From: an uncultured Flavobacteriales bacterium
Lineage (GTDB): Bacteria; Bacteroidota; Bacteroidia; Flavobacteriales_D; Sanyastnellaceae
Direction of reading: 5' to 3'
Assembly: GCA_937881575.1 (NCBI GenBank)
Contig: CALGEI010000112.1
Location: 1 to 37,143, forward strand
Length of the DNA: 37,143 bases
This document shows positions 4,215 to 13,978 of the stretch, in pieces. The notes beneath the pieces are model-generated. The model was given only the letters and a program-made list of their open reading frames with translations. It searched no databases and had not been told where the DNA came from. Position numbers and translations under genes: made by a program. Position 1 is the first letter of the stretch, and each line of letters begins with the position of its first letter.

Positions 4215-4535
4215 TTAATTGATTTCGAAACGGTAGACTTGTCCGCAATCGGTTTCGATGGTTTCTTCGGAGTCTTCACAGGCTGAAATAAAGGCCATTT
4301 TAGCCACGATATCATAAGAGCCGGCATCGGCTTGGTAGCTTGCTGAGTCCAAAATGCTCATATCACCAACGAACAAGTCTCCGTTGATTTCAACGTCTGG
4401 AGTACAGACCGTGTTGTTGATGATCCAGATCGTCGCTTTGTCGTCGCATTCTAGAATGTCATCCTTGCACGAGGTCAAGGCAAACAGGGGCAATAAGGCA
4501 GCGACTAGCATCGGTTGAAGAGCAGACTTTTTCAT
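4215..4535 (-). CDS. Small putative lipoprotein, function unknown
   Basis: This 106-residue protein has a clear type II signal: basic start MKKSALQP, a hydrophobic stretch and lipobox LTSC, with KDD directly after the Cys. The mature part is acidic and contains six further Cys residues spread across the chain (in DILECDD, NNTVCTPD, FISACED and TDCGQ among others), possibly forming disulfides. I do not recognise a family. It is upstream of the SGNH cargo gene on the same strand, and a promoter-like element sits about 30 bp before its start. Confidence 0.68.
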   Translation of the reverse strand: MKKSALQPMLVAALLPLFALTSCKDDILECDDKATIWIINNTVCTPDVEINGDLFVGDMSILDSASYQADAGSYDIVAKMAFISACEDSEETIETDCGQVYRFEIN

Positions 4536-4561
4536 GGGGTATACAGGGTGTTGATTGAATT

Positions 4562-4589
4562 CAAATTTAAAGGGAGGGATGAGGCAAAA
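4562..4589 (-). promoter_or_regulatory. Candidate Bacteroidota promoter for the small lipoprotein gene
   Basis: On the minus strand TAAATTTG (4569-4562) matches the -7 consensus TAnnTTTG. TTTTG (4589-4585) lies upstream with a 15-base gap, shorter than the usual 17-23. The ATG at 4535 is 27 bases downstream of the -7 box. Confidence 0.35.
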
Positions 4590-4684
4590 GTGTTAAAAGG
4601 AATTTAATTGACTGAGAGTGCTTGAGGAGGATGCCCGATTTATCCGATTATCTTGCACTTCGTTGGTTTCCCCCAAGGTCCCTC

Positions 4685-5560
4685 ATGAAAGTATCCGGCT
4701 TCACCTTTATCCGAAACGCTGTCAATTATGACTACCCTGTCGTCGAGGCAATCGAGTCGATCCTTCCGATTTGTGATGAGGTGGTCGTGGCTGTTGGAGC
4801 TTCTGATGATGCCACATTGGCCTTGATCCAAGGAATTCAATCCGATAAAATCCGCATCGTTGAAACGGTTTGGGATGATGCGTTGAGAGAAGGAGGGCGC
4901 GTGCTCGCCGTGGAAACGGACAAGGCGCTAGCGGAAGTTGCGGCCGATGCGGATTGGTGTGTTTACATCCAAGGCGATGAGGTCCTGCACGAAGACGGAC
5001 ATGCCGCCTTGAAGCAGGCGATGGAGGTCAATCTGCAGCGCGAAAGCATAGACGGGTTGTTGCTGTCTTACCGCCATTTTTATGGGTCATATGACTATTT
5101 GGGGACAAGCAGCAAATGGTACCGCAATGAGATTCGGGTGATCAAGCCAGGTCGGGACATTTTCTCTTTCCGAGATGCTCAGGGTTTTCGGAAGCGCCCG
5201 GATCAAAAATTGCGCGTGGCAAGGGTAGAAGCATACATGCACCATTATGGTTGGGTCAAGGAGCCCGAAGCCATGCAACGCAAACAAGAGAGTTTTCACA
5301 AGATGTGGCATGATGACGATTGGGTCGCCTCCCATGTGGTTCCTGCAGAATCTTACGATTATGGCCGTGATGTGCAACAAATGCAAAAGTTCACGGGCAC
5401 ACACCCTCGGGTCATGTTGGAGCGCATTCAGCGACAAAACTGGACCTTCGATACCGACATCTCAATTGACCGCCGGACAAGCAAAGACCGGTTTAAATCA
5501 TTTTGCTACAATCGCCTGGGGATTGAGCTCGGATACAAGAACTATCTTGCGGACCGATAA
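4685..5560 (+). CDS. Glycosyltransferase family 2-like protein
   Basis: The chosen ATG at 4685 gives 291 residues starting MKVSGFTFIRN, a typical GT-A start. The open frame extends back to 4622, but those 21 residues are not conserved-looking. Features are a Rossmann-like first strand, an ILPICDEVVVAVGASDD segment (family 2 nucleotide-binding loop) and WCVYIQGDEVLHE near residue 100, where GDE could replace the usual DXD metal motif. The C-terminal part is rich in Trp, His and basic residues. The likely role is transfer of a sugar to an envelope glycan or lipid; donor and acceptor are unknown. The ICMT-type methyltransferase gene begins 22 bp downstream, suggesting co-transcription and a shared envelope role. 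Confidence 0.75.
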   Translation: MKVSGFTFIRNAVNYDYPVVEAIESILPICDEVVVAVGASDDATLALIQGIQSDKIRIVETVWDDALREGGRVLAVETDKALAEVAADADWCVYIQGDEVLHEDGHAALKQAMEVNLQRESIDGLLLSYRHFYGSYDYLGTSSKWYRNEIRVIKPGRDIFSFRDAQGFRKRPDQKLRVARVEAYMHHYGWVKEPEAMQRKQESFHKMWHDDDWVASHVVPAESYDYGRDVQQMQKFTGTHPRVMLERIQRQNWTFDTDISIDRRTSKDRFKSFCYNRLGIELGYKNYLADR

Positions 5561-5582
5561 CCGCAAAACAAGACTGCAGGCC

Positions 5583-6332
5583 ATGGCAATGATTGAAGAA
5601 TTGGAGCGTTCAGGAAATTGGTTGTTCCGCGGGCGTTCATACTTCCCGTTGGTTTTGTACGTGCTCATGGCGATTGTCATTGGCATGGAGTGGGATCCGT
5701 TGTTCCAGACGTTTGATGTCATTTCCGCAGTGGCTTGCATCGCCATTTCCATGTTGGGATTGGTCATCCGCTCTTTGACCATTGGCTTCACGCCTCGGGG
5801 GACATCGGGCCGAAACACCAATGCCGGACAAGTGGCTGAAGTGTTGAACACACAAGGCATGTACAGTCTTGTTCGGCATCCGCTTTATCTCGGTAACTTT
5901 TTCATGTGGTTGGGCATCATGATCTATGTCGGCAATGTTTGGTTTGCCGTGGTTTGCTGCCTGTTGTATTGGCTGTACTATGAACGAATCATGTTCGCGG
6001 AGGAGGCTTTTTTGCGCAAGAAATTTGGCAAGGCTTACCTCGATTGGTCCGTGGACGTGCCCTCTTTTTGGCCTCGAAACCTCAAATGGCAAACACCGGA
6101 TGTGGAATTCTCTTTTCGCAATGTCTTGAAACGAGAATACAACGGTTTCTTCGCTGTTTTCGTTAGCCTCGCTATGGTGTCTGCTGGCAAGTCCTATGTG
6201 CACATCACGAGCGATTGGGAGCAGGTGTTGCAGCCGTTTTGGCAAGGCGCTGTTCTTGGATCCTTTGTGATTTTCCTGACCCTGCGTAGCTTGAAGCGGT
6301 ACACCCGCGTGCTGCATGTGGAAGGGCGCTAA
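5583..6332 (+). CDS. ICMT/PEMT-type membrane methyltransferase
   Basis: A 249-residue membrane protein with several hydrophobic segments and the signature of the isoprenylcysteine carboxyl methyltransferase / phospholipid methyltransferase superfamily: SLVRHPLYLGNF near residues 97-108 (SAM-binding RHPxY), then YYERIMFAEEAFLRKKFGKAYLDW, the conserved E-E-x-L-x-x-x-F-G-x-x-Y block. These enzymes use S-adenosylmethionine to methylate a membrane-embedded substrate. Bacteria seldom make prenylated proteins, and one known bacterial member, LmtA of Leptospira, methylates the 1-phosphate of lipid A. With the upstream glycosyltransferase-like gene, a lipid A or lipopolysaccharide substrate is my inference. 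ATG at 5583 is chosen; another ATG follows at 5589. Confidence 0.83.
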   Translation: MAMIEELERSGNWLFRGRSYFPLVLYVLMAIVIGMEWDPLFQTFDVISAVACIAISMLGLVIRSLTIGFTPRGTSGRNTNAGQVAEVLNTQGMYSLVRHPLYLGNFFMWLGIMIYVGNVWFAVVCCLLYWLYYERIMFAEEAFLRKKFGKAYLDWSVDVPSFWPRNLKWQTPDVEFSFRNVLKREYNGFFAVFVSLAMVSAGKSYVHITSDWEQVLQPFWQGAVLGSFVIFLTLRSLKRYTRVLHVEGR

Positions 6333-6604: not shown

Positions 6605-7729
6605 CTAAAAGGGTGATTTGTACTGTGGGTTTTCAGCAAGAGTGGGGTCCGTGAGGCACTTCAGGAAGGCCGCCAAATCCATGCGGTCTTGTTCGTCGAG
6701 GAGGAGTCCCGTCTCTTGCGTGGCGGCCAATGCCGGATCGACCGTTGCGGACAATTGAATGCCTTCATTGTAGTGATCAACGACCTCTTCCAGCGTGGCG
6801 AAACGACCGTCATGCATGTAGGGTGGCGTGAGTTCGATGTTGCGAAGGCTGGTTACCTTGAATCTGGCGCGATCCTGGGGACTCCCGGTAACCACCATGA
6901 ACCCACTGTCTTGCATGGCGGCATCGCTATCCAATCCGTTGTTCATGAAATCATCGTTTTCGAAGTTGATTCCGGAATGGCAATGCGCACAATCCGCACC
7001 GCTGAATTCAGGAAAAAAGGGATTGTACTCCATGAAGAACAAATCCAACCCTCTAAGTTCACTTTCATTCAGTATGGACTCTCCGGCGAGGTGTTGGTCG
7101 TATCGGCTGCCGTAAGAAACGATGCTGAGCATAAATTGCTCTAGGGTCAAACTGATTCGCTCCGGCGTGATGTTCCCATCTCCGAATGCTCGGGTGAATT
7201 GGTCCACATATTCAGATTCTACCGATAGCTTGGCAATGACATCGTCCAAGTTTTCATCCATTTCCAGCTCATCTTCGATGGGAAGCAAGGATTGGTGTCT
7301 CAGCAACTCAGCCCGGCCATCCTAAAAGAATCGATTGGAGTTCCAGGCCATGTTCGACACGGCCATGGCCTGTCGATGTCCAGGCAGGCCTTGAATGCCA
7401 ATTGAAAACCGAGCGGTATCGCTAAAGCCAGCGCTTTGAAGGTGGCAAGTTGCGCAGCTCATGGTTTCATCACCACTCAATGCGGTTTCGTGAAACAACA
7501 TGCGTCCAAGTTCAACTTTAGCCTGAGTCAAAGGATTGTCTGCCGGCAGAATGGGGGGTGTCACATGTGCTGGGAATACCAGTTGATACGGTGTTGAATC
7601 CGCTGTGATTTCGGGTTCATCCGGAGTGCGGTTGCATGAAGCGATGGTCCCTGCAAGCAGCACAGCCATCAGGATCCACTTGGGGTGGGGTGATCCGGTA
7701 TTCCAATTGAAAGAGCGTGAACCATTCAT
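6605..7729 (-). pseudogene. MbnH-like di-heme cytochrome c peroxidase interrupted by one amber codon
   Basis: Two abutting frames in the same phase encode one complete di-heme peroxidase of the CcpA/MauG/MbnH superfamily, about 374 residues. It has a lipoprotein-like N-terminus (IASC, Cys32), a first heme site CATCH (Cys92-His96), a second heme site CAHCH (about 247-251), and TPPYMHDGRFATLEEVVDHYN near the end. Codon 136 (7322-7324) is TAG in the context NRFF-stop-DGRA. The family motif is FFWDGRA, so a single G-to-A change turned the conserved Trp codon TGG into TAG. No frameshift or other damage is visible. Either the gene was recently inactivated, the base is a sequencing error, or the stop is read through. 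It lies 93 bp downstream of the MbnP-like gene, the usual partner. Confidence 0.85.
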
Positions 7730-9597: not shown

Positions 9598-11349
9598 GTG
9601 ATGATTCAACGAAGTATGTTTTGTCGGTTTTCGTCCAAGGAAATGATTGCGACGGACGCCTGTGAGGTCACCTTGGTGTCCAAGAAAAAAATGCCCTTGA
9701 GACATTGGATTCCGGGGCAGTTTTTGACGCTAATTCTGGAATTACCTGAAGGCACAGTTCATCGGAATTACACCATTGTGGCAATGGAGGCCCGGAAAAT
9801 TGTATTGGCCGTTCGCCGGGCACCGGGAGGGCGTGTTTCGAATTGGCTAATTGACGACGCCAAAATCGGAGAGGAAATCAAAATCATCTCACCCTTAGGC
9901 CAGTTTGGACTGCCCATCCATCCTCAGGGACCCATTTGTTTCATTGCAGGAGGAAGTGGCATTACGCCATTCATCCCGATGATTCGCCATCGGAAAGCTC
10001 CGCATTTGGAGCATCCATTCTTGCTGATAACGGCCAATTGGACGACGGAAAGCACCATGTACCGTGAAGACTTGGAAGCGTTTCATGCGGATGGCGCGGT
10101 GCGCTGGATGAGCATGCTGACGGCCCCGAATTTGGATTCGGCGGCGGCGAACCGGAACCAAATCATAGGACAGAGTGATGCCAAGGGGTTGGCGTTGGCG
10201 CTGGAGCGACTGGACTGCGCGCTGGACTCGGTTCACTCCAATCCGGAATTTCCAGCACACTTTTATATCTGCGGACCCGCGAAAATGATGCAAGCACATC
10301 GTTCGCTGCTGATGGAGCATGGTGTTTCCAGTGATCGCATTGTTTTGGAAAGTTTCTCCACGGAAAATTTCGCTGTATCCGATTCGAGCCAGGCGATTGA
10401 CATCGTTGTATCGAAGGATGGGCAAGAGGAAAAGGTGGCCGTAAATCCAGGCGAATCTGTTCTGGAGGCCTGTTTGAACCACGGACTATCCATTCCGAAT
10501 AGCTGCCGAATGGGAGCCTGCGGGACATGCCACATGACGTTGGACCATGGGGAGCTGCGGTTGGGTAATCAGGCTGGATTGACCGAATCAATACAAAGGC
10601 AGAGGAAGGTGTTGGCATGCCAGTCATTTCTTCATGATGACGTCAAGCTTGCGCCGGCGCTATCGCACAGTCGAGCGAATGGTCGCCGCAATGCCTTTCT
10701 TGTCGCTGCCGGACTTGCCTTGTTTGTTTTCGCAGGAGCGAAAATTCCAGCAAGCTCCCAATTCATGATGGTTGGGCCTAAAAACACGGGCCATGAGGGA
10801 ATCGAATGTCGCCAATGCCATGTCGATGCGCCGGGTTCCTTTCGACAGCAGGTGAGTCACAACGCCAGAGGAGTCATGGGGTTTCATGATTTGGATTGGG
10901 TGGATGTTGGAACTGCGGAGGTCACCAATGAAACGTGCGAAACATGCCATGCCCGTCCCAACGATCGGCATCCGGTCCAACGTTTTCAGGAATTGCGATT
11001 TTTTGATCAACGAGAAGCCCTGGGGGTGCATGAATGCAAAAGCTGTCACATGGAGCACAACGGAGTGCGGGTAACTCTCGAGGGAGGAGACTTTTGCCAA
11101 TCATGCCATGCCGACCTGGTGATGGACCAAGATCCCTTGGATTTTTCTCATGCCGAGATCATCGCAGAAGGGTCCTGGGATGCCTGCATGCAATGCCATG
11201 ATTTCCATGGCAATCACAAGGCGCAGGCCCCAACATCGATTCAGGATACCATTGGGCTGCATCAAATCCGAAAATATCTCAACGGGGGGGAGGACCCCTA
11301 CGGACTGCAAAAAGAACATTTAGCCCGCAATCCACTTTTAGAAGAATAA
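9598..11349 (+). CDS. FAD/NAD(P) reductase - [2Fe-2S] ferredoxin - TM - pentaheme cytochrome c fusion
   Basis: A 583-residue fusion. Residues 1-258 form a ferredoxin-NADP reductase module: PGQF (39-42), RNYT (56-59, FAD), GGSGITP (118-124, pyridine nucleotide) and CGPA (225-228). Residues 265-350 form a plant-type ferredoxin with Cys303, 308, 311 and 341. A helix at about 365-383 follows a basic RANGRR stretch, placing the N-terminus in the cytoplasm. Beyond it are five CXXCH heme sites (Cys404, 447, 480, 500 and 530), so the C-terminus should be periplasmic. As read, one chain could carry electrons from NAD(P)H through FAD and [2Fe-2S] across the membrane to c-type hemes. It is the first gene of a four-gene unit; the next starts 18 bp on. 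The acceptor is unknown. ATG at 9601 is an alternative start. Confidence 0.88.
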   Translation: MMIQRSMFCRFSSKEMIATDACEVTLVSKKKMPLRHWIPGQFLTLILELPEGTVHRNYTIVAMEARKIVLAVRRAPGGRVSNWLIDDAKIGEEIKIISPLGQFGLPIHPQGPICFIAGGSGITPFIPMIRHRKAPHLEHPFLLITANWTTESTMYREDLEAFHADGAVRWMSMLTAPNLDSAAANRNQIIGQSDAKGLALALERLDCALDSVHSNPEFPAHFYICGPAKMMQAHRSLLMEHGVSSDRIVLESFSTENFAVSDSSQAIDIVVSKDGQEEKVAVNPGESVLEACLNHGLSIPNSCRMGACGTCHMTLDHGELRLGNQAGLTESIQRQRKVLACQSFLHDDVKLAPALSHSRANGRRNAFLVAAGLALFVFAGAKIPASSQFMMVGPKNTGHEGIECRQCHVDAPGSFRQQVSHNARGVMGFHDLDWVDVGTAEVTNETCETCHARPNDRHPVQRFQELRFFDQREALGVHECKSCHMEHNGVRVTLEGGDFCQSCHADLVMDQDPLDFSHAEIIAEGSWDACMQCHDFHGNHKAQAPTSIQDTIGLHQIRKYLNGGEDPYGLQKEHLARNPLLEE

Positions 11350-11367: not shown

Positions 11368-12645
11368 ATGTCGCAACTACGCAAACACTTATTGGTTGTT
11401 TTTTCATTGGGATTGCTTGTCTTCTCGATGCCGGTTTTGGCACAAAAAGCGTCCAATTCATCCAGTTTTTCACTTGATGCTCAGGTGCGTCCACGCACAG
11501 AAATGAGAGGGGGATACCGCACGCCATTGCTTGAAGGGCAGCATGCTGCAGTCTTGACGGATCAGCGGACTCGATTGGGTGTGCGTTATGCTGACACTGG
11601 GTTTGAGCTCAGGGTCAATTTTCAGGATGTGCGCGTTTGGGGAGCTTCGCCCACCATGACAACAGGTGGAATGGAACCCAGCTCGGGCCAGGTCAATCTC
11701 GGGTTAGTGGAAGCCTGGGCAAGCGTCAATTTGGGTCAATCTTGGAAACTCACAGCCGGTCGTCAAATCATATCATTGGACAATGAACGGTATTTTGGTA
11801 CGGTAGGATGGGCACAGACAGGGCGGGTTCATGATGCGCTGATGTTGAGAAAGTCCGATGATTCTAGTCCTTGGAAGTGGACGCTTGGAGGGTCGTATGG
11901 TCAGCAACAAGCGGTCTTGATCGATCAGCCTTTTGCACTTCCGGGAGCCTACAAGGCGCTGGCTTTGGCGCATGGGGCTTATGAACCTCAAGATGGTGTT
12001 TCGCGGATTTCGGGTTTGTTGACGTCCGTGCAGCGAACGGCCAGTCCGCATCGCTTTGAGCACACGGCTGGTTTGACCTACTCCAAGAAGGCCCCATGGA
12101 GTTTGGTGCTTGAAGGCTATGTCCAATCGGCGGGAGCGGGAGCGGGGACGGGCTATTTGTTGGCGGGATCGCTTTCAACCAAGACGGGCCGCCACCAGTG
12201 GACCATTGGCACCGATTGGTTGTCAGGAGATCAAGAGAATACGGTGGCATTTTCACCTTCATTCGGAACGAACCACAGGTATTATGGGTTGATGGATTAC
12301 TTCTACGCAGGCAGTGGCCATGGTTCAGTTGGACTGATGGACCACTTTGTGAAGTGGGCTTCTACGTTTGGTGATGGCAACACGGCCAAGCATTCCTTGA
12401 CAGCACATTATTTTGTCAAGGGCGATGCATCCGAAATGTTGGGGTGGGAATTGGATTGGGCCTTGTCCAAGCCGCTTCATCCAGGAGTCACCTTTTCTTG
12501 TGGAGCGTCCGTTCTAGACGGTACAGGCGACCTCTTGGAGCTGAAAGGCTGGACGGAAGATCTCGTGGCAGAAGGAACAGGCATCCAGTCTTGGGGATGG
12601 ATTATGCTCAGTGTTAACCCCACCTTATTCTCTCAATCGAAATGA
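11368..12645 (+). CDS. Outer-membrane beta-barrel protein, alginate-export/porin-like
   Basis: A 425-residue protein with a signal peptide (...MPVLAQ) and a chain of alternating polar/apolar strands typical of outer-membrane barrels. The N-terminal third resembles the alginate-export porin family: QVRPRTEMRGGY, QRTRLGVRY, NFQDVRVWG, WKLTAGRQIISLDNERYFG and WAQTGRVHDAL. In other bacteria members of this family pass varied solutes, so alginate is not implied. It sits inside the redox operon, 18 bp after the fusion gene and overlapping the next gene by 4 bp (ATGA). It could admit an electron acceptor or donor to the periplasm, or act as the barrel of a trans-outer-membrane electron conduit. The latter would be new for this family and is only inference. 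Confidence 0.8.
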   Translation: MSQLRKHLLVVFSLGLLVFSMPVLAQKASNSSSFSLDAQVRPRTEMRGGYRTPLLEGQHAAVLTDQRTRLGVRYADTGFELRVNFQDVRVWGASPTMTTGGMEPSSGQVNLGLVEAWASVNLGQSWKLTAGRQIISLDNERYFGTVGWAQTGRVHDALMLRKSDDSSPWKWTLGGSYGQQQAVLIDQPFALPGAYKALALAHGAYEPQDGVSRISGLLTSVQRTASPHRFEHTAGLTYSKKAPWSLVLEGYVQSAGAGAGTGYLLAGSLSTKTGRHQWTIGTDWLSGDQENTVAFSPSFGTNHRYYGLMDYFYAGSGHGSVGLMDHFVKWASTFGDGNTAKHSLTAHYFVKGDASEMLGWELDWALSKPLHPGVTFSCGASVLDGTGDLLELKGWTEDLVAEGTGIQSWGWIMLSVNPTLFSQSK

Positions 12646-13472
12646 AATTGACTTCAGCATTTTGGTTGGTCCTTGCAGGCGTTTTTGTCACGGCCAATGT
12701 TTATTTGTTCTCCACGGCTCCTGAACCACTGATCAAGAAAAATGAGGCCAAAGTCACTTTTTCGATTGAAGAGGCCTTGACGGCGCTTTCGTTTGAGAAC
12801 GACATCACCCGCACTGTGTATACGCGAGAAATTGTCGGGGGTGGGAAGAAAAACGGGTTGAAATTTAGTGAGAAATGGGCGGATGAAGATGTTCACGCTG
12901 GGCCGCTTCCCGCGCTTTTCCTGCGCGGTATAGCAGGCAGCCTTTCGCGATCGAGCGTGCCGTTGGATTTGTATCTCGGTTCGGATTACCCCATTGAAAG
13001 CAGCAATTTGTTTGAAGGCATTCAGGCTGAGAAATTTGCTGAAATCAGGGCCGATGGCGAGCCCAAGTTTTTCTATGATGACCGGACGTCCGCTTACACG
13101 GCGATGTTCCCAGACATCGCCACAGCCATGCCCTGCGTGAGTTGCCATAACACCCATGAACAATCAGCAAAGAAGGATTGGGTGCTCAACGATATCATGG
13201 GGGCCACGACCTGGAGCTTTCCTTCCGATTCCATAACGACGGATGAATGGGTTGAAATGCTCTCAGCGTATCGCGCTGGCGTAGCTGAGACGTATGGAGT
13301 GTATTTGGCCAAGGCGGGTGCGTTCCCAGAAGAATTGCGGCCTGTGATCGGTGGGGGTTGGCCGAAAAGTCAAGCCCAGTTGCCTTCCCCTGAGATGTTG
13401 CGGGATACGATTGATCAGTTGACCTCTCAAAAGCTGATGGAATTCCTCGTCGCTCATGCTGTAGAATCATGA
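12642..13472 (+). CDS. DUF3365 / Tll0287-like membrane-anchored mono-heme c protein
   Basis: A 276-residue protein whose N-terminus is one uncleaved-looking hydrophobic anchor (4-24). The periplasmic part carries the DUF3365 signature: GLKFSEKWADEDVHAGPLPA (72-91), DYPIESSNLFEG, YTAMFPDIATAMPCVSCHN (one CXXCH, Cys165-His169), then DWVLNDIMGATTWSF. DUF3365 (Tll0287-type) proteins bind one c-type heme in a PAS-like fold and are proposed redox sensors or electron carriers. The start overlaps the stop of the barrel gene (ATGA) and its own stop overlaps the next start (ATGA), so translation is probably coupled. Within the operon it could accept electrons from the pentaheme domain or sense the acceptor. 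Confidence 0.83.
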   Translation: MKLTSAFWLVLAGVFVTANVYLFSTAPEPLIKKNEAKVTFSIEEALTALSFENDITRTVYTREIVGGGKKNGLKFSEKWADEDVHAGPLPALFLRGIAGSLSRSSVPLDLYLGSDYPIESSNLFEGIQAEKFAEIRADGEPKFFYDDRTSAYTAMFPDIATAMPCVSCHNTHEQSAKKDWVLNDIMGATTWSFPSDSITTDEWVEMLSAYRAGVAETYGVYLAKAGAFPEELRPVIGGGWPKSQAQLPSPEMLRDTIDQLTSQKLMEFLVAHAVES

Positions 13473-13978
13473 GGTACAGCATCAACCTGTTGACGCTCGT
13501 CGTGAGCGTCGTGGTGGGTGCTTTGGTTCTCCTCAAGGCAGGAAATTGGTCGATGTTTGAGTTTCTGGAAGTCTGGAAACAAGCAGAGAATTATCAAATC
13601 GGCACGGGGCTCGGCTTGCTTTTTGTGGTGATCGCGCAATGGTCTCTCACCGCTGCCAAAGGCGTGTTTAATTTGTCGGGCGCTGCATGGGATCGCATGT
13701 TGCTCTTGCACTACATGCTGGGTTTGGTTAGCCCCATTTTGGCTTTCATGCACAGTGCGAAATTGGGCTACGGTTTATTGGGTGCGCTCATCGCGCTATT
13801 CCTCTTGAACGCCATGTTTGGAAGTGCAATGGGCCTCGCAAATGAAGCAGGTACATCGAGCAGGCGATTTGCAATCAAGTGGTCTGTCGTCCAAATGGTG
13901 CCGATTCACATTGCACTTTCCAGCCTCGTTGCTGCGATGCTATTGGTCCACATTTGGAATGTGATCTATTTCAATTGA
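13469..13978 (+). CDS. Small membrane protein with two HX13H pairs (probable di-heme b)
   Basis: A 169-residue protein with about five hydrophobic segments (5-22, 45-64, 78-95, 100-122, 143-168). Two helices carry paired His residues with identical spacing: His81/His95 and His147/His161. Two HX13H pairs on separate helices are the arrangement used by ferric-reductase/NOX-type and related membrane cytochromes to hold two b hemes, one near each membrane face. I see no FAD or NAD domain, but the first operon gene supplies those functions. It is the last gene of the redox operon, with its start in an ATGA overlap. A role as quinone-linked or transmembrane electron carrier is inference. No specific named family is recognised. 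Confidence 0.72.
   Translation: MRYSINLLTLVVSVVVGALVLLKAGNWSMFEFLEVWKQAENYQIGTGLGLLFVVIAQWSLTAAKGVFNLSGAAWDRMLLLHYMLGLVSPILAFMHSAKLGYGLLGALIALFLLNAMFGSAMGLANEAGTSSRRFAIKWSVVQMVPIHIALSSLVAAMLLVHIWNVIYFN

Follow-up and report, generated by a model that had tools for sequence, protein, structure and literature searches.

A candidate split NOX/MsrQ-like electron conduit ending in c haems in an uncultured Flavobacteriales bacterium

How can a polypeptide that carries a flavin and an iron-sulphur cluster at one end and five c haems at the other deliver electrons across a membrane, when a single helix is all that joins its two halves? This question is posed by a gene in the window, as we call the whole 37,143-nucleotide stretch of DNA analysed here, which an earlier note had read as encoding one chain with FAD, [2Fe-2S] and five c haems. 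The open frame, the Pfam domains and five invariant CXXCH motifs confirm that reading. The frame at 9598-11349 (+ strand, as are all features described below unless stated) is open and real and comprises 583 codons when begun, as in the note, at GTG 9598; the start is, however, more probably ATG 9616, which gives 577 amino acids (9616..11349), since the homologues begin with MW... at this position and several of them have a stop just a few codons upstream. In the numbering of the 583-codon frame, the N-terminal half contains a FAD-binding domain (residues 10-103, 9625..9906; PF00970, FAD_binding_6, 37.7 bits against a cut-off of 21.1), an NAD(P)-binding domain (residues 115-235, 9940..10302; PF00175, NAD_binding_1, 39.8 bits against 22) and a ferredoxin domain (residues 273-344, 10414..10629; PF00111, Fer2, E 1.9e-16), all three of which exceed the curated Pfam cut-offs. 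The RNYT, GGSGITP and CGPA motifs and the ferredoxin ligands Cys303/308/311/341 are found where they had been placed before. With FAD, NAD(P) and plant-type [2Fe-2S] domains all present, this half falls into the FNR/oxygenase-reductase superfamily; it matches benzoate dioxygenase reductase in the PDB (1krh, E 3.2e-22), and the best NCBIfam matches of the fusion, PaaE and GbcB, have scores far under the equivalog cut-offs. The oxygenase reductases, among them PaaE and glycine betaine monooxygenase reductase, share the FAD-NAD-[2Fe-2S] order, but the fusion differs from them in carrying a membrane helix and c haems. The FAD-binding motif at 9766-9780 reads RNYTI in the window protein as opposed to SAFSI-like in most relatives, the latter recalling the NOX motif H[PSA]F[TS][LIMV] with its first His replaced (motif: PMC5676040).

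The C-terminal half carries the CXXCH motifs at residues 404 (10807..10821), 447 (10936..10950), 480 (11035..11049), 500 (11095..11109) and 530 (11185..11199). All five are invariant in the 17 aligned proteins, as are the four Fer2 cysteines in 16 aligned proteins, and the pattern is therefore beyond chance. Seven His outside the CXXCH motifs are invariant in the same 17 proteins, six of them also being kept in the Flammeovirga relative described below, and these spare residues would be enough for bis-His ligation of five haems. This combination of CXXCH motifs and spare His gives the domain the make-up of a multihaem cytochrome c (c3/c7-like). In isolation it matches PF14537 (28.5 against 25 bits) and resembles domains II/IV of MtrC/MtrF just under cut-off, and a PDB profile search with its alignment gave weak matches to nitrite-reductase cytochromes and nothing else. 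Cytochrome c assembly genes are found in the genome (PF01578). The single-sequence AlphaFold model of the fusion (mean pLDDT 33.3) was too poor for a fold-library search.

Between the two halves lies a single predicted transmembrane helix (residues 366-384, 10693..10749), a hydropathy peak preceded by three basic residues, in agreement with the helix at about 365-383 after a basic stretch that had been proposed before. Its orientation can be judged from a split relative of the fusion. When the pentahaem domain was compared with plasmids by tblastn, one record was returned, a 640-kb replicon of Flammeovirga kamogawensis (47% identity), on which four consecutive genes encode a DUF3365 protein, a 158-amino-acid HX13H protein, a 352-amino-acid FAD/NAD/[2Fe-2S] reductase and a 228-amino-acid pentahaem protein. 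The window fusion is the counterpart of the last two of these joined together, which indicates that the fused form arose by gene fusion. As the separate reductase lacks an export signal it must be cytoplasmic, and as the helix in front of the haems is a basic N-terminal signal anchor of the pentahaem protein's own (MFKISRKRQRQW followed by the helix), the helix in the fusion should run from the cytoplasm to the periplasm (N-in/C-out). The split form thus lends support to the topology put forward in the note, in which one helix takes the chain from the reductase side to the haem side. Directly upstream of the split cassette, at 4431-6178 of that stretch, lie hemA and a globin gene, possibly for haem supply and as a redox partner.

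For the membrane crossing itself the note had nominated the product of 13469..13978, described as an HX13H protein, as a bridge with two b haems. The motif is present, but it occurs twice and not once (His81/His95 and His147/His161), in a protein of about five helices. The alignment of 17 sequences has just 17 invariant columns, and these include His81 (13709..13711) and His95 (13751..13753) in helix 3 and His147 (13907..13909) and His161 (13949..13951) in helix 5; the same four are kept in the 158-amino-acid Flammeovirga membrane protein, which likewise has two HX13H motifs and is a clear homologue (hhalign probability 98.5). The loop charges suggest that the N-terminus is inside, with His81 and His147 near the cytoplasm as predicted ligands of an inner haem b and His95 and His161 near the periplasm as predicted ligands of an outer one. 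Two bis-His motifs in the third and fifth helices, with a spacing of about 12-14 residues, are the signature of the FRD/NOX/MsrQ superfamily (PMC5676040), and the HX13H protein shows two such motifs in helices 3 and 5. Its helix order is that of the FRD pattern, as is the basic character of its cytoplasmic loops; the NOX/FRD proteins in the cited literature have six helices, as opposed to about five here. PF01794 (Ferric_reduct) is the commonest Pfam match of the HX13H proteins, though a weak one (12/17 members, best E 1.9e-4), and the window protein itself stays under the curated cut-off (E 0.45, 11 against 28 bits). Comparison by hhalign with single E. coli MsrQ, NarI and CybB sequences gave no discrimination (NarK served as the control), a PDB profile search with the alignment gave no relevant matches, and the single-sequence AlphaFold model (mean pLDDT 59.7) was too poor for a fold-library search. 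That the protein works like an FRD is well supported, and its membership in the FRD superfamily is probable.

The two proteins also belong together genetically. The fusion, a beta-barrel, a Tll0287-like protein (hereafter Tll) and the HX13H protein are encoded in this order, 5' to 3' on one strand, the last three genes overlapping by 4 nt, and this arrangement is repeated in related genomes of three genera, where neighbouring genes mostly overlap by 4 nt or abut directly and the HX13H gene overlaps or adjoins the preceding gene. Of the 114 host-family genomes, 18 carry the fusion; Tll is present in exactly those same 18, and the HX13H protein in all 18 as well, with two fragments elsewhere. 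Such near-obligate co-presence (18/18), together with the gene coupling, the four invariant His and the helix-3/5 signature of the FRD type, supports the proposed role of the HX13H protein as a b-haem bridge. The two HX13H gene fragments that occur without the rest of the cassette (G057:C91:1283-1432 and G087:C61:18-299) are of two kinds: one is interrupted by an internal stop and may be a decaying remnant, the other lies at the edge of its contig. The flanking genes examined differ between loci and are unrelated, being FtsH and RsfS in one case, asparaginase and sulphate permease in another and CIA30 and an rRNA methylase in a third, and this constant content amid changing neighbours identifies the cassette as a unit. 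Pairwise distances among the core parts are correlated at 0.85-0.93, which partly reflects shared descent. The window cassette branches off first within the fused group, apart from the cassettes of its own genus, so that it may possibly have been transferred from an unsampled lineage or be an old divergent copy; its GC content (0.519) differs little from the value for the window (0.502). Within Bacteroidota as sampled the cassette is rare: alignments of the pentahaem domain or Tll found no carrier besides the window among 395 genomes of the phylum and 395 + 376 of the class, which are thin, partly overlapping samples searched with strict cut-offs. A single-protein search of the genome contigs returned one irrelevant reductase, a promoter and terminator scan stayed at chance level, and the open-licence literature yielded no description of this architecture.

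Where would the electrons go? The most conserved component of the cassette is Tll (12642..13472), a membrane-anchored mono-haem c protein of the Tll0287/DUF3365 (haem-Cache) family, which has about 80 invariant columns and a mean pairwise identity of 0.59, higher than the values of the HX13H protein (0.45) and the reductase half (0.40). Because of this highest conservation Tll is likely to be the working end of the chain. Its match to PF11845 (26.2 bits against a cut-off of 24.1) covers the C-terminal half of the model only, but the CXXCH is present, and a PDB profile search with its alignment gave no relevant matches. It is like Tll0287 in its Pfam family, its CXXCH and its stand-alone form: stand-alone DUF3365 members have been assigned redox roles and those fused to signalling modules NO sensing (PMC12889525, preprint). 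A Cys is the distal haem ligand in Tll0287 and in the P. putida protein, although this is not known to define the whole family (PMC12889525). The window protein differs from Tll0287 in having just the two CXXCH cysteines, and no other Cys is conserved in the alignment; its distal ligand must therefore be a different one, and the reported Cys/His ligation cannot apply. For stand-alone Tll0287-like haem proteins, the cassette offers a concrete candidate redox partner.

Taken together, we favour the view that the cassette encodes a split NOX/MsrQ-like transmembrane electron conduit ending in c haems, and put the probability of this at about two in three. Judging from the fold family, NAD(P)H would reduce the FAD of the cytoplasmic FNR domain, from where electrons would pass to the [2Fe-2S] cluster. 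The ferredoxin domain, which a tether of about 20 residues keeps close to the membrane, would then dock beneath the five-helix HX13H protein, a contact that we infer, and reduce the inner haem b (His81/His147). Transfer to the outer haem b (His95/His161) would constitute the membrane crossing, after which the electrons would presumably move to the pentahaem domain, held on the periplasmic side by the fusion's own helix, and from there to the membrane-anchored Tll; the direction of flow and a final substrate beyond Tll are likewise parts of this proposal.

Several known systems share elements of this scheme. NOX and ferric reductases (FRD plus FNR), including SpNOX, also have an NAD(P)H and FAD domain that faces the cytoplasm and two b haems with bis-His ligation in helices 3 and 5. 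However, NOX carries FRD and FNR on one chain, whereas the FNR and the HX13H protein each have a gene of their own, in the examined loci as well as in Flammeovirga; the FRD-like part of the cassette is small and stands alone, with about five helices, there is an additional [2Fe-2S] domain, and the FNR chain also takes a pentahaem acceptor across the membrane. That the flavin domain of both NOX and MsrQ reduces a b haem without a [2Fe-2S] domain counts against the conduit. MsrQ (YedZ), which together with the flavin reductase Fre feeds MsrP, resembles the cassette in its separate FRD-type b-haem membrane protein, separate flavin reductase and periplasmic acceptor. Different from MsrQ/MsrP, the acceptor here would be a pentahaem c domain on the same chain as the reductase and then Tll, with no molybdenum enzyme. 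Inner-membrane cytochromes of the CbcL type, in which multihaem c is fused to a di-haem b domain, likewise combine b and c haems from the membrane to the periplasm, but they are thought to take electrons from quinol and, unlike the cassette, contain neither an FNR nor a ferredoxin domain. Finally, the flavinylation-associated MsrQ-like systems comprise PF01794 proteins that draw on NAD-binding domains to supply carriers outside the cytosol (PMC8238504), these carriers being FMN-binding domains and not multihaem c as in the cassette.

But are the two halves of the fusion wired to each other at all? They might instead be merely tethered, the FNR-ferredoxin part serving a cytoplasmic partner and the pentahaem part having another donor, for instance quinol if the HX13H protein were to oxidise it. 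Quinol oxidation is a common activity of di-haem b proteins with four to five helices, and contact is seen in no structure, the two single-sequence models (pLDDT 59.7 and 33.3) being too poor for use. Moreover, the halves are separate genes in Flammeovirga, where the globin gene upstream would be a possible cytoplasmic partner. On the other hand, this explanation does not sit well with the near-invariant linkage of the three core genes or with the finding that the host family has the halves joined in one gene and Flammeovirga has them side by side, and the pairing of an FRD-type membrane protein with an FNR donor is known (PMC5676040); we therefore regard it as unlikely. The latter recipe of an FRD-like membrane protein plus FNR donor is also that of NOX and FRE (PMC5676040) and might point to an oxidase or ferric reductase, in which the outer haem b or the exposed c haems would reduce O2 or ferric chelates, with Tll as a redox sensor of the reaction. 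However, NOX chemistry would need neither a dedicated pentahaem acceptor whose ligands are invariant nor a highly conserved haem c protein, and the flanking genes examined include none recognised as an iron-uptake gene, so that we give this idea little credence.

Equally improbable in our view is a conduit of the porin-cytochrome kind, in which the pentahaem domain would pass electrons through the barrel encoded by the adjacent gene to an acceptor outside the cell. Such a reading would make use of the likeness of the pentahaem domain to MtrC/MtrF and of the position of the beta-barrel gene (11368..12645), which is second in the operon in most loci. Yet the barrels, of 358-425 amino acids, give alginate-export (PF13372 in 13/14 members) or porin O/P matches only and no MtrB/PioB match, whereas the MtrCAB/PCC systems combine a large MtrB/PioB-type barrel with a multihaem partner, and the cassette lacks a gene for an extracellular multihaem protein. 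The barrel is, in addition, a neighbour of the cassette in 13 of the 16 other loci, lying divergently in one and downstream in another, but was not detected within the stretch examined beside the cassette in the remaining three, nor is one annotated in the Flammeovirga stretch. By this gene content the porin lies outside the conserved core, which consists of the fusion, Tll and HX13H genes, and is probably an accessory for the passage of a small solute.

To return to the split NOX/MsrQ-like conduit, NAD(P)H-driven electron transfer of the FRD type is known as such, and what is notable here is the architecture: the geometry is unusual in that the donor and acceptor modules reside on one chain and the membrane step on another. 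We consider it an evenly balanced question whether this amounts to a class of its own among NAD(P)H-driven conduits. In such a class a single chain with both terminal modules, flavin/Fe-S inside and five c haems outside, would clamp a separate minimal di-haem b protein, and the path would end at a haem-Cache protein whose distal ligand is not a Cys and which acts as reductase for a periplasmic substrate. The cassette would join NAD(P)H-to-membrane transfer in the style of NOX and MsrQ with multihaem c wiring, two things usually kept apart, and, if the proposal is true, periplasmic multihaem cytochromes would be fed directly from NAD(P)H, bypassing the quinone pool. The fused and split versions represent a natural experiment on the assembly of such a chain.

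We also weighed whether the adjacent MbnP and di-haem peroxidase genes form part of the system and rejected this, as they lie on the opposite strand and are not seen beside the cassette in other genomes, in which the MbnP labels represent short matches to the C-terminal sorting tail of MbnP. The peroxidase gene (CCP_MauG, 6605-7729, - strand) is broken by an in-frame TAG, which falls within FF*DGRA where the di-haem peroxidase family normally has FWDGR, and this is either a nonsense mutation or an assembly error.
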